A program made the position numbers and the translations under genes. From IMG/VR virus record IMGVR_UViG_3300005537_000015, positions 1 to 40,286 of that record: a stretch of DNA of 40,286 nucleotides. One strand, written 5' to 3'. How positions within the stretch are numbered: position 1 is the first letter of the stretch; every line of letters begins with the position of its first letter. A model generated the notes under the pieces. The model was not told where the DNA came from, made no database searches, and saw nothing but the letters and a program-made list of their open reading frames with translations. Source of the stretch: a virus. Shown here one piece after another: positions 5,823 through 39,116 of the stretch.

Positions 5823-5958
5823 TAAAGACATTGAACGTGTCATTGGTTATGTGCTAATGAAGGCTATGTTATCAATGCTATCTAGCAACGCAGAAGGGAT
5901 GAATCCCGAATCGTTGTTGAAAGGTGTGAAAGAAGAAGTTCTAACAAAACGTGCGTAG
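5797..5958 (+). CDS. Unknown 53-aa helical protein ending inside a tRNA-like gene
   Basis: ATG 5797 (METQYILNDKDIERVIG) gives a helical, Met-rich protein ending EVLTKRA and a TAG stop at 5956-5958. The stop falls in the first six bases of the tRNA-like gene at 5953. It may follow its neighbours by translational coupling. Confidence 0.5.
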   Translation: METQYILNDKDIERVIGYVLMKAMLSMLSSNAEGMNPESLLKGVKEEVLTKRA

Positions 5959-6021
5959 TGGTGTACGGTGCAATGCCGAGTATCAATGTCGGGGGAATGG
6001 GTTCAATTCCCATGCTGCGCT
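5953..6021 (+). tRNA. tRNA-like gene, loop centre UCA (candidate UGA decoder)
   Basis: Acceptor GCGTAGT pairs with GCTGCGC (two G-U pairs). The T-arm is canonical (ATGGG, TTCAATT, CCCAT). The D-arm is short, with GG in its loop. The anticodon arm is CCGA/TCGG enclosing GTATCAATG, whose centre is UCA (5983-5985). Flaws are a G-G at 31/39, A instead of U at position 33, and a three-base-pair D-stem. Discriminator is U, not the G of bacterial tRNA-Trp. It could be a UGA suppressor of unknown amino-acid identity or a decaying tRNA. Confidence 0.45.
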
Positions 6022-6084
6022 TCGAACGGTTGTGTGGTGTCGTTCTAAACCAAACCACTCATCATTAACCACATAGGAGATAAC

Positions 6085-6252
6085 ATGGAACAACTGTATT
6101 GCTTTTTTCCATTAGATGAAGATGATCGTTGGGAGAGTCTACGTGTAACAAACAACAAGCTATTGGTGGCACAAGCGTTTGAACACAAATATCAAGTGTG
6201 GACATTCCCACAAATGCAACCTATTACGTCGGCAGACATCGTAATTCAGTAA
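6085..6252 (+). CDS. Unknown 55-aa protein
   Basis: A strong SD (AGGAG) seven bases before ATG decides this start. Product begins MEQLYCFFPLDEDDRW and ends in VIQ with a TAA, nine bases before tRNA-Glu. Soluble, mildly acidic. Not recognised. Confidence 0.6.
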   Translation: MEQLYCFFPLDEDDRWESLRVTNNKLLVAQAFEHKYQVWTFPQMQPITSADIVIQ

Positions 6253-6845: not shown

Positions 6846-6917
6846 ATCGAGTAACAGCAAATGGTGCGCGTGAAGTCTCCAAAACTTCTGTATAGAGTTC
6901 GATTCTCTAACTCGGTG
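6846..6917 (+). tRNA. tRNA-Trp (CCA) with weak D-stem
   Basis: Acceptor ATCGAGT/ACTCGGT, anticodon stem GAAGT/ACTTC with loop CTCCAAA, T-stem TAGAG/CTCTA with TTCGATT, discriminator G as expected for Trp. The D-stem is poor: only the inner GC/GC pairs form in AACAGCAAATGGTGCGCGT. In E. coli, D-arm changes in tRNA-Trp(CCA) (the Hirsh suppressor) permit UGA reading. Confidence 0.85.
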
Positions 6918-9547: not shown

Positions 9548-10726
9548 TTAATCCTTGTAGGGGTCGTGATCTCTATTGTCAGCCATGCACACACCAACAG
9601 GCTTTAGTCTATGCACAACGTGCACAGTATTGCGATGTGCATGTAGCACTTGCTCTATGCGTTTGTAAACTTGGGGGGACTCATCGACATCACCACCCCT
9701 TAGTTCAACTCCAAACGTTGACACCCAAGTCTGCATATCTTCTCGACTAACAAGGCCAGCTCGTATGACTTCGTTCGTCTTACGATTGATCTTCCCCTTC
9801 GCTTGAGAACGACCCATAACACGTCCAGAACCATGAATCGTTGAATACATGCTGACTTCGTTGTCGGGATGCTGTACGCCTTCAAGGATGAATGAGTAAT
9901 CGCCCATAGACCCACCGACAAAGCTTTTGACACCAGGGTAATTAGGTGTCGCTCCTTTTCGTACAACCCATACATCTTTGTCGTGGTGACGTTCTCGCCA
10001 GGCAAAGTTATGATGGTTGTGAACCTCTTCGATGATGTCAGCCCGTAAGATTCTAGCCACACGCGAACACACCCAATTCCTACCAGCGTAGGCGTAACGA
10101 CCCGCAAGTTCCATACACTTAATATATTGTTGGCCCAAGTCCGAATCTTCGTCCAACACGATGGGTTGTGCGTGCATTCCATCTTTGCCTCCTGCGGCGT
10201 TGATAAAGTACGTTGCTATGCCATGTCCAAGCCCACGTGATCCAAAGTGAACACCAATCCACACACAATCAAGATCGTCAACAAATAGATCGACGTAGTG
10301 GTTGCCAGACCCAACCGTACCCAGTTGTTCAATGGATTTTTGTTTAAGCCCCTTGAGAACGTCGATTTCACCCCATACACCATCGTCAAACAACTCGTGT
10401 TCAATACGCTCGTTGTTCTTTCTTCCAAGGCCGAACGAGATATACTTCTGGACGTCGTTCATCGTTCTGTAGATGTCTTTACGTAGTGCGTCTCCATCCA
10501 TGTTGCAACGTACAGCTTTGTTACCACAAGCAATGTCATAGCCAACACCATTGACACATATTTTGCGATCATAAGCAAGCACACCACCAATAGGCACACT
10601 ATAGCCAATATGGTGATCAGCCATGAGAGCGCCATATAGTGCGTCATATTTAAACGCTTCAGTAATTTGTGCAACAGATTGAACATCCGGTTCGCCCCAT
10701 ACTGCAATGTTATTGATTACTTGCAT
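9548..10726 (-). CDS. rtcB: RNA-splicing/repair ligase RtcB
   Basis: 392 aa. RtcB joins a 2',3'-cyclic phosphate or 3'-phosphate RNA end to a 5'-OH end using GTP and Mn(II). The metal and guanylate motifs are present in order: GVGYDIACGNKAVRC (about 57-71), GSGNHYVDLF, HFGSRGLGH, RKGATPNYPG, GSMGDYSFI and HGSGRVMGRSQAKG. Length is slightly below E. coli RtcB (408 aa). Beside the tRNA cluster it probably reseals tRNAs cut by host anticodon nucleases. TAA stop. Confidence 0.95.
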   Translation of the reverse strand: MQVINNIAVWGEPDVQSVAQITEAFKYDALYGALMADHHIGYSVPIGGVLAYDRKICVNGVGYDIACGNKAVRCNMDGDALRKDIYRTMNDVQKYISFGLGRKNNERIEHELFDDGVWGEIDVLKGLKQKSIEQLGTVGSGNHYVDLFVDDLDCVWIGVHFGSRGLGHGIATYFINAAGGKDGMHAQPIVLDEDSDLGQQYIKCMELAGRYAYAGRNWVCSRVARILRADIIEEVHNHHNFAWRERHHDKDVWVVRKGATPNYPGVKSFVGGSMGDYSFILEGVQHPDNEVSMYSTIHGSGRVMGRSQAKGKINRKTNEVIRAGLVSREDMQTWVSTFGVELRGGDVDESPQVYKRIEQVLHAHRNTVHVVHRLKPVGVCMADNRDHDPYKD

Positions 10727-10910
10727 CGTCTAACACTCCTTTAAAGTCTGGGCTACATAGAAACATTGTACAGTCATATAGCTTTGCATACGTTGGACTG
10801 ACAATCCAATCACGTGGGCATTGTTCCGCAACTAACCACAGCACCCTAGGAGGTATACACCCACGGAACACTATATAGTTTTTATATGTTTTAACTGACC
10901 ACTCTAACAT
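10710..10910 (-). CDS. Unknown 66-aa protein
   Basis: First gene of the rtcB operon. The product opens MLEWSVKTYKNYIVFRG, with three Cys and several aromatic residues, and overlaps the rtcB start by 17 bases. TAA stop. No SD is obvious upstream. Family unknown. Confidence 0.5.
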   Translation of the reverse strand: MLEWSVKTYKNYIVFRGCIPPRVLWLVAEQCPRDWIVSPTYAKLYDCTMFLCSPDFKGVLDDASNQ

Positions 10911-10929
10911 AAAACCTCAAAGAAATATA

Positions 10930-10958
10930 TTGAAATGTGTTAAAAAAAAGTTTATCAT
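10930..10958 (+). promoter_or_regulatory. Predicted promoter of the late operon
   Basis: TTGAAA, 17-base spacer containing an A8 run, then TATCAT; the first late gene starts 22 bases after the -10 with SD GGAGG. It sits in the divergent gap between the rtcB operon and the structural genes. Confidence 0.6.
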
Positions 10959-10980
10959 ATAGATATACCTTGGAGGGTAC

Positions 10981-11226
10981 ATGAAGCAAGAAGGCGATTT
11001 AATTGTAAAGATATCATTGAGCAATGGCGTCAATATCGCAGCGTACGCAGGTGCGGGTGAATTAACAGAGATGGTGTGCCATCCAAAGTTTATAAGAATG
11101 CGTGGTGATAAGAACGAGCTGTTTGTGTCTATAGAAGACATTGCAGCGTTTGAGATAGAACCACAAACAAACCAGGATGAACATGCGCCGGAAACGAAGG
11201 AAGAACTATCGAAGAACCCCATGTGA
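10981..11226 (+). CDS. Unknown 81-aa protein, first gene of the late operon
   Basis: Strong SD (GGAGG). The first 60 residues look like a small beta-rich domain (LIVKISLSNG, IRMRGDKNELFVSIEDIAAF), followed by an acidic tail. Stop is TGA followed immediately by TAA. Its 3' end overlaps the next gene by 50 bases. Confidence 0.65.
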   Translation: MKQEGDLIVKISLSNGVNIAAYAGAGELTEMVCHPKFIRMRGDKNELFVSIEDIAAFEIEPQTNQDEHAPETKEELSKNPM

Positions 11227-11440
11227 TAATTGTGGATCACCGGAATACGACTTAAGACTTTATAAACATATTGACGGGGGATTGATGTTGTGCAGTACAT
11301 GTGCAGAACTCCCAGCGTGCGAAGTATGAAAGCGTGTACCACCCATTGTATGGGTTAATGTTTTCGGTGAATACTTCCCACCCGACTATCCAATAGCCAA
11401 ACGTCACCAGCAGGATAATGAACGAAAATCAAGCGTTTGA
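11177..11440 (+). CDS. Zinc-knuckle protein with in-frame UGA codon
   Basis: Opens MNMRRKRRKNYRRTPC (or from the ATG two codons later), with CDNCG at about 16-20 and CSTCAELPAC at about 39-48, a four-Cys zinc site. TGA occurs at codon 51 (11327-11329). The frame then stays open with natural-looking coding sequence KRVPPIVWVNVFGEYFPPDY and ends at TGA 11438, 20 bases inside terL. No start codon lies after the break. It may be read through to give an 87-residue product. HNH-like or regulatory roles are possible; not recognised. Confidence 0.5.
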
Positions 11441-33671: not shown

Positions 33672-33769
33672 TCTTTATCTCGTTTACGTTCGTAATCTTC
33701 TATGTCATCGCCATAATCACGTTGATATGGTACACGCTTCTGCTCTTCAGGACTTTCTTCTGTATTCAT
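33605..33769 (-). CDS. Small charged protein (54 aa)
   Basis: ATG 33769 gives MNTEESPEEQKRVPYQRDYG and a Tyr/Arg/Glu-rich rest ending in TAG. Overlaps the end of the nuclease by 23 bases and the start of recT by 67. Unstructured, highly charged. Likely coupled to the recombination module; no function known. Confidence 0.5.
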   Translation of the reverse strand: MNTEESPEEQKRVPYQRDYGDDIEDYERKRDKEWNQEYQNNPIYQQYRTLRHRR

Positions 33770-34313
33770 GAGCACCAATAAAAAAATGTTTATAGATATC
33801 AAGGCACTTACTAAAAAGTTCGAAACAGTCATCGTAAACGTACAAGTGTGGTGGTTTACCCAGTTTGTCAAGATGCAAGAAGTGTATGCCTTTGATGTCA
33901 TACCCATCTTTACGTGCCATGTAGGCATATGCCGACCCCTGTAAGGGCCATGTTTTACTGGGCTTGGAAGATGTTTTAAGATCTAGAATAACAGCACCTT
34001 GTGGTGTGTTTATTATCATGTCGACTTGGCCAGTGATCATCAACTCAGAGCAATAGAAGCGTTTTTCTAACGCCAATACGGTGTGTCCGGATTGCCACCA
34101 CAATTTAAAAGAATCAACATAACCACGAATATCATCAGTAACATTCCACTCACCTAACCCTTTCACAATACCTTCACAGATGTCATGCACCCGCGTACCA
34201 CGGTTTGCGGCGTTTGCTAAGATGTCGGGTTTTATGTATGTCAACCCGCTAAATGGGTATAAAACTTCAGTTACCCGTGTGTATTTAGCTTGAATGTTTT
34301 CGCTATTAGAGAT
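33747..34313 (-). CDS. PD-(D/E)XK (RecB/Cas4-like) exonuclease, apparently with a non-AUG start
   Basis: Motifs: TGQVDMIIN (Asp), ILDLKTSSK (D-x-K), and LQGSAYAYM (conserved Gln/Tyr helix), which form the metal-dependent nuclease core. It resects double-strand ends for RecT. The conserved opening YTRVTEVLYPFSG lies upstream of the first TTG (34244), yet no ATG, GTG or TTG exists between it and the upstream TAA. ATC at 34313, with AGGTAAAG before it, is the best candidate start. 188 aa, TGA stop. Confidence 0.78.
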   Translation of the reverse strand: MSNSENIQAKYTRVTEVLYPFSGLTYIKPDILANAANRGTRVHDICEGIVKGLGEWNVTDDIRGYVDSFKLWWQSGHTVLALEKRFYCSELMITGQVDMIINTPQGAVILDLKTSSKPSKTWPLQGSAYAYMARKDGYDIKGIHFLHLDKLGKPPHLYVYDDCFELFSKCLDIYKHFFIGAHEYRRKS

Positions 34314-34317
34314 AACT

Positions 34318-34398
34318 TTACCTGCAAGTTAGAATTCCTAACAGATATCCAACAGCAAACCACTGTAAAGAGTCGTAGATGTAGGGTGTTAGGAGCAT
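34318..34398 (-). CDS. Possible 26-aa leader peptide upstream of the nuclease
   Basis: ATG with TGGTGG before it, product MLLTPYIYDSLQWFAVGYLL and six more residues, hydrophobic, ending at TAA four bases before the proposed ATC start of the nuclease. The stop overlaps the nuclease SD (AGGTAAAG). This spacing suggests translational coupling. Confidence 0.4.
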   Translation of the reverse strand: MLLTPYIYDSLQWFAVGYLLGILTCR

Positions 34399-37798: not shown

Positions 37799-37982
37799 TT
37801 ACAAAGTTCTCAAGGGAATTATTGACGACTACATACAACACATGGAAGGCGTTAATGATAAACGTTTAGCACATGCTGAACGCGAAGTCAATCTTGTAAC
37901 AAAAGAGTGCAACGCATTCAATTGTTTACGTAACAACTTAAGATTAATGGAGTTAGAGTATGCAGTACCCCAAAATACATAG
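37785..37982 (+). CDS. Small coiled-coil protein (65 aa)
   Basis: ATG 37785 (MSESNYKVLKGIIDDYI) overlaps the previous gene's end. Largely helical, with charged heptads and two Cys. Its last bases overlap the RNA ligase start in another frame. TAG stop. Function unknown. Confidence 0.5.
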   Translation: MSESNYKVLKGIIDDYIQHMEGVNDKRLAHAEREVNLVTKECNAFNCLRNNLRLMELEYAVPQNT

Positions 37983-38649
37983 CCTATGAAAGCGTCAGGG
38001 TTGGTACTTTGAAGAGAAAAAAACGTGTTCACCAGCGCGGCAAGAACATAGGCAAAGCTTTATCATAGGGGACTATGCTTGCGACGAGTTCGCCAGCATT
38101 AATCGTTGGGTTATCGACGAAAAAGTTGATGGTACTAACGTTCGTATCTTCTGGGAACCAGACGATCCGTTTTCCCCTACATTCGGTGGCAGGACAGATA
38201 ACGCGCAGATGCCTATTAGCTTGTTGCAACACCTGCAAAGAACGTTCACGCGCGAAAAACTGCTCGAGCAGTTCAAGGACGTAAAACGCGTGGTGTTGTT
38301 CGGTGAAGGGTATGGGCCTAAGATACAGGCTTGTGGAGCACGTTATCGCTCCGACGTGTCTTTCATCTTGTTCGACGTCGTCGTTGATGGTTGGTGGTTG
38401 CAAAAGCCCAGTGTATTGGAGATTGCCCAATCCCTTGACATTGAACACACTATCAATCAAGTGGTCATGACTACGAACGAAGTTGTCGAGTTCGTAAAAT
38501 CGCAACCCAAAAGCTATATCGCTGAGGATGCCACATTGATCATGGAGGGAGTAATAGCGCGTAGCATCCCGCTTATGTTGTTCAGACAAACACATACGCC
38601 CATCATGTTCAAGCTTAAAGTAAGAGACTTTGTACAAATGGAATATTAA
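37960..38649 (+). CDS. RNA ligase (nucleotidyltransferase type) with in-frame UGA codon 10
   Basis: 229 codons before the TAA stop. It starts MQYPKIHSL, then TGA (37987-37989), then KRQGWYFEEKK. The 'YPKI..L.KR' opening is conserved in DraRnl-like RNA ligases and spans the TGA, while no start codon follows it. The catalytic Lys is in EKVDGTNVRIFW (about residues 60-71), followed by VLFGEGYGPK and VIMEGV-type motifs (here LIMEGVIARS). It uses ATP to seal 3'-OH/5'-phosphate ends. UGA probably encodes Trp or is read through. Confidence 0.82.
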
Positions 38650-38654
38650 AAACA

Positions 38655-39116
38655 ATGTTAAAGTTGATATTACCAGGAGAACCCACAGCGCAGGCGCGTA
38701 TGCGGTTCTTCCGACGTGGGAATAAAACCATGTGTTTTGATCCACAAACAGCGTTGAAACGTGAGTTGCGTTTGTTGTTGCAAGAACAGATGCCAACACA
38801 GTGAAAGCAACCAGAAAATCCACGTGTCATGTTTTGGTTTGGCATGTCGATACCGAAAAGTATGCCTAAGTGTCAACGTGCTATGTGCAACACAGGGTTG
38901 TACAAGCATATAAAGAAGCCAGACGTTGACAACTTGATAAAATTGTATCTGGATGTTATGTCTGGCATCGTATTTAAGGACGACAATTGCGTGTCTCTGG
39001 GGTCGGCGATCAAAGTCTATACCGACTCCCCACGTGTAGAGATATACGTGCAAGAAACGCAAGCGCTCGTTTCAATGGACGAAATCTATGAGGGAACGTG
39101 GGAAATCAAGATCTAA
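38655..39116 (+). CDS. rusA: RusA-type Holliday-junction resolvase with in-frame UGA codon 50
   Basis: The opening LILPGEPTAQARMRFFRRGN is the RusA N-terminus. TGA occurs at 38802-38804, then KQPENPRVMFWFGMSIPKS continues. The active-site block KKPDVDNLIKLYLD and the acidic GIVFKDD (about residues 93-118) follow in the same frame. Both halves belong to one domain, so the frame must be read across TGA for a full protein of 153 residues. Resolves recombination junctions. TAA stop. Confidence 0.82.

Follow-up and report, generated by a model that had tools for sequence, protein, structure and literature searches.

In-frame UGA codons, probably read as tryptophan, in the adjoining RNA ligase and RusA genes of a phage

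The ligase-RusA locus and its in-frame UGA codons

The stretch of DNA analysed here (the window) comprises all 40,286 bases of the virus record IMGVR_UViG_3300005537_000015. It carries an RNA ligase gene and, as the next gene downstream, a gene for a RusA-type Holliday junction resolvase, each with an in-frame UGA:

37960-38649, plus strand: RNA ligase gene; 229 aa with UGA read as Trp, ending in TAA; Pfam PF09414, 5e-14
37987-37989, plus strand: in-frame UGA, ligase codon 10, next codon AAG; the closest relatives have TGG (Trp)
38655-39116, plus strand: RusA-type Holliday junction resolvase gene; 153 aa with UGA as Trp; PF05866, 9.6e-24
38802-38804, plus strand: in-frame UGA, RusA codon 50, followed by AAG; present in 7/7 phages of the group that have the gene, TGG in outgroup G010

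The ligase frame opens at 37960 with ATG CAG TAC CCC AAA ATA CAT AGC CTA TGA AAG, and GGAG lies upstream of the ATG at a spacing of 7. Past the TGA, 219 codons remain open before the TAA, a run with a chance probability of approximately 1.6e-6 at the base composition of the window. No ATG, GTG or TTG occurs in frame from 37990 up to 38209; the first such codon, ATG 38209 (codon 84), lies beyond the catalytic Lys55 of EKVDGTN, so that a start there would cost the ligase its motif I lysine. With TGA read as Trp, the product matches the Pfam RNA_ligase family, and in an alignment of ten homologues Lys55 of motif I (EKVDG; K55xDG), E196-G of motif IV and K218-L-K220 of motif V are invariant. The original prediction, made from sequence alone, had described an ATG, nine codons and a TGA followed by an open ligase frame, with all ligase motifs after the TGA and no start codon near the break; these three points were confirmed.

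Codon 10 of the ligase, the position that the original prediction had proposed to compare with the closest ligases, is TGG in all four closest relatives (G001-G004, IMG/VR contigs from four metagenomes). Among ligases recovered by protein search, it encodes Tyr in those of G008 and G009 and Phe in two that are distant. TGA at this codon is confined to a single contig, that of the window, and every other ligase found has a sense codon. A pattern search allowing TGA or TGG at codon 10 returned further ligases, all with TGG. The 17 contigs matched in this way were disallowed as proof of Trp at codon 10, because the pattern itself demanded TGA or TGG; they show only that TGA is rare there. The UGA of the ligase is likely to be translated as Trp, a conclusion that rests on a single assembly, without reads or protein evidence.

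The AlphaFold model of the window ligase (pLDDT 84) has as its nearest folds in the PDB T4 RNA ligase 2 (2hvr/1s68; 3.6e-9 for 2hvr) and then an RNA-editing ligase (TbREL1); NgrRnl also matches by fold, ranking behind both. No significant sequence match was found in the PDB, and the score against the NCBIfam Rnl2 equivalog was far below its cut-off. The description of the enzyme as DraRnl-like in the original prediction found no clear support in these comparisons. Judged by its nucleotidyltransferase motifs and by the modelled fold, the protein is predicted to be of the Rnl2 type. It shares the adenylyltransferase fold and motifs with the T4 RNA ligase 2 family; unlike those enzymes, it has only 229 aa, and identity is approximately 15%. 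Separately, a second RNA ligase, of the RtcB family, is encoded beside the PF09414 one in the window, at 9548-10726 on the minus strand, and the window holds at least 13 tRNA genes. RtcB, a second ligase and this number of tRNAs would suit a role of the ligase in tRNA repair, which is an inference.

In RusA, TGA AAG stands at exactly the same point in G001-G004, and TGA is also found in G008 and G009. The RusA proteins of the window and G001-G004 are 56-65% identical, whereas at 4-fold degenerate sites the window shows only approximately 33% identity to every other phage, which amounts to saturation. Among core-gene Trp codons, the window has 86 TGG, and G003 has 83 TGG in addition to the RusA TGA. 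Since silent sites are saturated, the keeping of one UGA among approximately 85 Trp codons is not inertia. The RusA UGA is therefore likely to be old and held by selection, and it makes a stronger case than the ligase UGA: the sequence of one and the same protein is conserved before and after an in-frame UGA that is itself retained, which satisfies the criterion for readthrough, whereas the ligase UGA is known from one sequence only. Both UGA codons of the window, and the RusA UGA of G001-G004, stand in the leaky context UGA AAG; misreading of UGA by E. coli tRNA-Trp occurs most readily when A is the next base (PMC5289835). A search downstream of the RusA UGA yielded no convincing and no conserved RNA structure. 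Beyond RusA and the ligase, no other internal UGA was found in conserved genes of the window; the remaining candidates fall before probable starts, within shadow frames or at the ends of genes, and a minus-strand frame with a TGA (10710-11342) had no supporting family.

UGA as tryptophan and as stop across the phage group

A tree of 18 concatenated proteins, rooted on G010 and G018, has the topology (window,(G012,((G001-G004),(G008,(G009,G011))))). Support is full for the group and for the separation of the window from the other phages in it, and weak (92.8/82) for the node at which G012 falls outside; a tree of TerL only leaves the branching order unresolved. No host could be called: against genome contigs, TerL gave one close match (66%), on a low-coverage contig in a Bacteroidales MAG, and the others, at approximately 40%, were to Proteobacteria. 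Annotated phages share less than 60% identity in TerL and the head protein, and no host was inferred from them.

Four members of the group use UGA broadly at tryptophan positions. Of the UGA codons, 39/52 in G008, 24/28 in G009, 9/12 in G011 and 10/13 in G012 occupy columns where other sequences have Trp. At core columns, the UGA/UGG counts are 36/45, 21/59, 9/27 and 12/24, respectively, so that 25-45% of Trp codons in these phages are UGA; the outgroups have none. TGA and TGG swap freely among the sister phages (for example, the TGA positions of G008 and G009 TerL do not overlap). These placements indicate that UGA means Trp in G008, G009, G011 and G012, and most probably at both sites of the window too. 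In G012 TerL, two UGAs (columns 7 and 73 in window protein numbering) differ from the rest, which fall on Trp columns, in standing where others have Phe.

UGA also ends genes, in the window and among its kin:

33747-34328, minus strand: PD-(D/E)XK nuclease frame (stop to stop) that terminates at UGA, against TAA or TAG in orthologues

UGA ends coincide with the residue at which orthologues have TAA or TAG in this nuclease (33747), in G002 compared with G004, in G004 compared with G003, and in G018 compared with G004. Code 4 for the whole genome of the window was ruled out on these grounds; UGA has two meanings there. The hallmark of code 4, numerous conserved Trp positions taken by UGA, is seen in G008, G009, G011 and G012, and not in the window, where UGA occupies only RusA codon 50 and ligase codon 10, against 86 UGG at core columns. 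In G008, G009, G011 and G012, no UGA stop could be verified; the few flagged were the RusA UGA and one ambiguous gene end. The claim of the original prediction that UGA is decoded, most plausibly as Trp, is thus supported, on evidence that was new to its reader, and it needs one correction: because this phage and its kin also terminate genes at UGA, the codon is ambiguous rather than reassigned. The RusA TGA at 38802 had been overlooked.

The concatenated tree makes the RusA UGA older than widespread reading of UGA as Trp, which G001-G004 either abandoned or never adopted. As for the nuclease, its frame lacks a clear ATG start in the window and in G001-G004, and a TTG or other non-ATG start seems likely.

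A candidate decoder tRNA and a prfB-type shift site in relatives

Two tRNA-Trp-like sequences lie in the window:

6846-6917, plus strand: tRNA-Trp(CCA) gene; relaxed ARAGORN; Infernal cmscan 28.2 bits, E 1.4e-4
5953-6021, plus strand: weak tRNA-Trp(UCA)-like sequence; relaxed ARAGORN only

The tRNA-Trp(CCA) gene, which the original prediction had also missed, sits between tRNA-Gly and tRNA-Pro; it has the anticodon loop CUCCAAA, G73 and an irregular D-arm, and its Infernal score is just below the 29-bit tRNA cut-off. Genes of the same type, with the common D-loop AAAUGGUGCG, were found in the window, G008 and G009, and the pattern matched no other viral contig. The type was not found in G003, G004, G010, G014, G015 or G018; contigs were scored for absence when they had tRNA genes or were near full length. 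This tRNA is thus carried by 3/3 phages that have UGA-Trp codons outside RusA, as against 0/6 of those that do not (Fisher p 0.012). The p value takes no account of kinship, and the nine contigs sampled are few and related by descent. Both sister phages with broad UGA=Trp use in which the tRNA region is covered (G008 and G009) carry this kind of tRNA.

It has been shown that a tRNA-Trp(CCA) with a 4-bp anticodon stem decodes UGA in E. coli, and that Hirsh-type D-arm changes act likewise (PMC13092985). In the G008 copy, pair 27-43 is broken (as read by eye), which leaves a 4-bp stem, while the copies of the window and G009 have 5-bp stems. As the anticodon stem of the window tRNA is normal, its decoding of UGA remains an inference: it is a putative UGA decoder, and it is possible that it merely reads UGG or is decaying. 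Moreover, G001-G004 keep the RusA UGA without such a tRNA, so that it is not required for RusA.

The sequence at 5953-6021 was rejected as a tRNA-Trp(UCA), as it has no Infernal tRNA match and its U33 is replaced by A; it is probably non-functional. With TCA at the anticodon position, good acceptor and T arms and a poor anticodon arm, it is possibly a relic suppressor tRNA. The window thus has this poor tRNA-like sequence as its only trace of a suppressor tRNA-Trp(UCA), and a tRNA-Trp(CCA) instead.

In G001-G004 the ligase is interrupted in another way: two frames are joined at AAGGAG-TGT-CTT-TGA-C (contigs L002-L005, at approximately 6061-6085), and this signature is invariant over approximately 20 nt. 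The features that it matches, a Shine-Dalgarno (SD) sequence, a 3-nt spacer and a shift site, are those of prfB (PMC5009743). The window ligase has no such cassette, being 10 nt shorter there and in frame, and does not meet the criterion for a prfB-type +1 shift. The exact 16-mer AAGGAGTGTCTTTGAC was sought in 2.9 million viral contigs, and outside G001-G004 it bridges a pair of frames in two viral genes whose products have a release-factor domain; these serve as a natural positive control:

L163, 1893-2472, plus strand: release-factor-domain gene (PF00472, GGQ) with the 16-mer shift site
L169, 4553-5160, minus strand: release-factor-domain gene (PF00472, GGQ) with the 16-mer shift site

The remaining matches to AAGGAGTGTCTTTGAC had no two-frame shift arrangement. 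No paper describing a prfB-type site in an RNA ligase was found in the literature searched, the coverage of which was incomplete. Taken across the window and G001-G004, translation of both genes of the ligase-RusA pair has to get past a UGA, either through readthrough or through a +1 shift. Dependence on a shortage of release factor 2 (RF2) would be the simplest common denominator of both gene interruptions, as we infer.

Proposed reading, alternatives and relation to known systems

The reading that we favour (probability approximately 0.72) is that the UGAs at ligase codon 10 and RusA codon 50 are read as Trp and that UGA is otherwise a stop. The two frames, the conservation of the RusA UGA, Trp at both positions in relatives, broad UGA=Trp use in sister phages and UGA stops elsewhere are shown. 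As to mechanism, we propose that RF2 competes with a tRNA-Trp at each of the two UGAs; some ribosomes would terminate and release a short, useless peptide, and others would insert Trp and make the enzyme. The phage's own tRNA-Trp(CCA) may raise the reading of UGA, aided by the leaky UGA-A context, and ligase and RusA would as a result be made at a low level or only under some conditions. The lineage would then be partway through a change of UGA to Trp, with other members much further along and the G001-G004 branch having backed out or never entered. It counts against this reading that UGA stops persist in the same genome, as an efficient suppressor would disturb them. A bolder version can be put forward, which we consider more likely to fail than to hold: a code change is under way, with UGA both stop and Trp in one genome and decoded by a phage tRNA-Trp with a CCA anticodon, and ligase and RusA act as RF2-sensitive valves, with readthrough as the gate of the ligase in the window and a prfB-type shift as its gate in relatives.

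The alternative that survives best is that the host decodes UGA as Trp, either by near-cognate misreading by host tRNA-Trp at UGA-A, which rises when RF2 is short, or because UGA is ambiguous in the host. The phage tRNA-Trp would then help with UGG only, and the level of RF2 would gate ligase and RusA. This remains possible. It is favoured by the retention of the RusA UGA-AAG in G001-G004 without a phage tRNA-Trp, and gating by RF2 is favoured by the prfB-like +1 shift that the ligase of these phages needs and by the same 16-mer in two release-factor-domain genes. However, the window ligase lacks the shift cassette and has a UGA together with the tRNA-Trp, and G008 and G009, which read UGA broadly as Trp, carry the same kind of tRNA.

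It is unlikely that the TGA in the ligase arose by nonsense mutation from TGG, leaving a dead enzyme, or through a miscalled base, with the gene really intact, and that RusA is a separate case of genuine readthrough. Only one contig has the TGA, and the other ligases found all have a sense codon. Against this, the remainder of the ligase gene is intact with all motifs, neighbouring RusA has a conserved UGA in the same UGA-AAG context, and some phages of the same group read UGA as Trp, with their type of tRNA-Trp encoded here too.

A third possibility invokes termination at the UGA, restart at an overlapping ATG and a +1 shift back into the ligase frame:

37986-38012, plus strand: overlapping ATG (37986) and CTT TGA (38007-38012), seen in the sequence; not conserved in relatives

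Although the TGA shares bases with this ATG, and slipping by +1 at CTTTGA would restore exactly the ligase frame, this is very unlikely: relatives have CTTCGA at that point, a proper SD is missing at the distance seen in prfB, the conserved YPKI..LWKR segment would be absent from the product, and RusA would be left unexplained. Selenocysteine or another non-Trp residue has nothing in its favour beyond the codon itself and is all but excluded, as the columns are Trp/Tyr/Phe in the ligase and Trp in RusA, never Cys, and UGA columns are Trp in sister phages.

The favoured reading, insertion of Trp at two UGAs in a phage that also stops at UGA, may be set beside known systems. In crAss-like and other gut phages, UGA=Trp (code 4), suppressor tRNAs and incipient stages are known (PMC7886860). 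The present group resembles them in the use of UGA as Trp, in codes that differ between close relatives, in stages of ongoing change and in the involvement of phage tRNAs. It differs as follows: the window has two UGA-Trp codons only, alongside UGA stops; CCA rather than UCA is the anticodon of the shared tRNA; the phages form a separate family of approximately 40 kb; and one UGA, that of RusA, has been kept in standard-code and reassigned members alike. Readthrough of UGA-A is known in bacteria, and the coat protein of phage Q-beta is subject to UGA readthrough by normal tRNA-Trp. As in readthrough by E. coli tRNA-Trp (PMC5289835), UGA is followed by A and Trp would be inserted in an otherwise standard code; unlike such cases, each of the two in-frame UGAs lies inside an enzyme gene and would gate the sole useful product instead of a C-terminal extension.

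The +1 shift of prfB, the gene for RF2, is textbook knowledge. The ligase of G001-G004 resembles it (PMC5009743, PMC12421855) in having an SD-like AAGGAG, a 3-nt spacer, CTT TGA C and the right frames, and differs in that the gene encodes an RNA ligase instead of a release factor; the cassette is missing from the window. The tRNA-Trp(CCA) decoders with a 4-bp stem (PMC13092985) are similar in that the CCA anticodon is kept in UGA=Trp genomes and in the 27-43 mismatch of the G008 copy; the copies of the window and G009 depart from them in their 5-bp stems and irregular D-arm, and in being phage-encoded.

New here are the conserved RusA UGA spanning standard and reassigned members, the CCA-anticodon tRNA associated with the change, and the prfB-type site in an RNA ligase. 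How a stop codon turns into a sense codon is an open question, and most known cases are already complete; one small group here holds outgroups without UGA-Trp, a phage with two such codons, phages with 25-45% UGA and a candidate CCA decoder. The prfB-type site in an RNA ligase would, if true, extend RF2-sensing control past release-factor genes. Standard gene callers truncate both the ligase and RusA in this phage.
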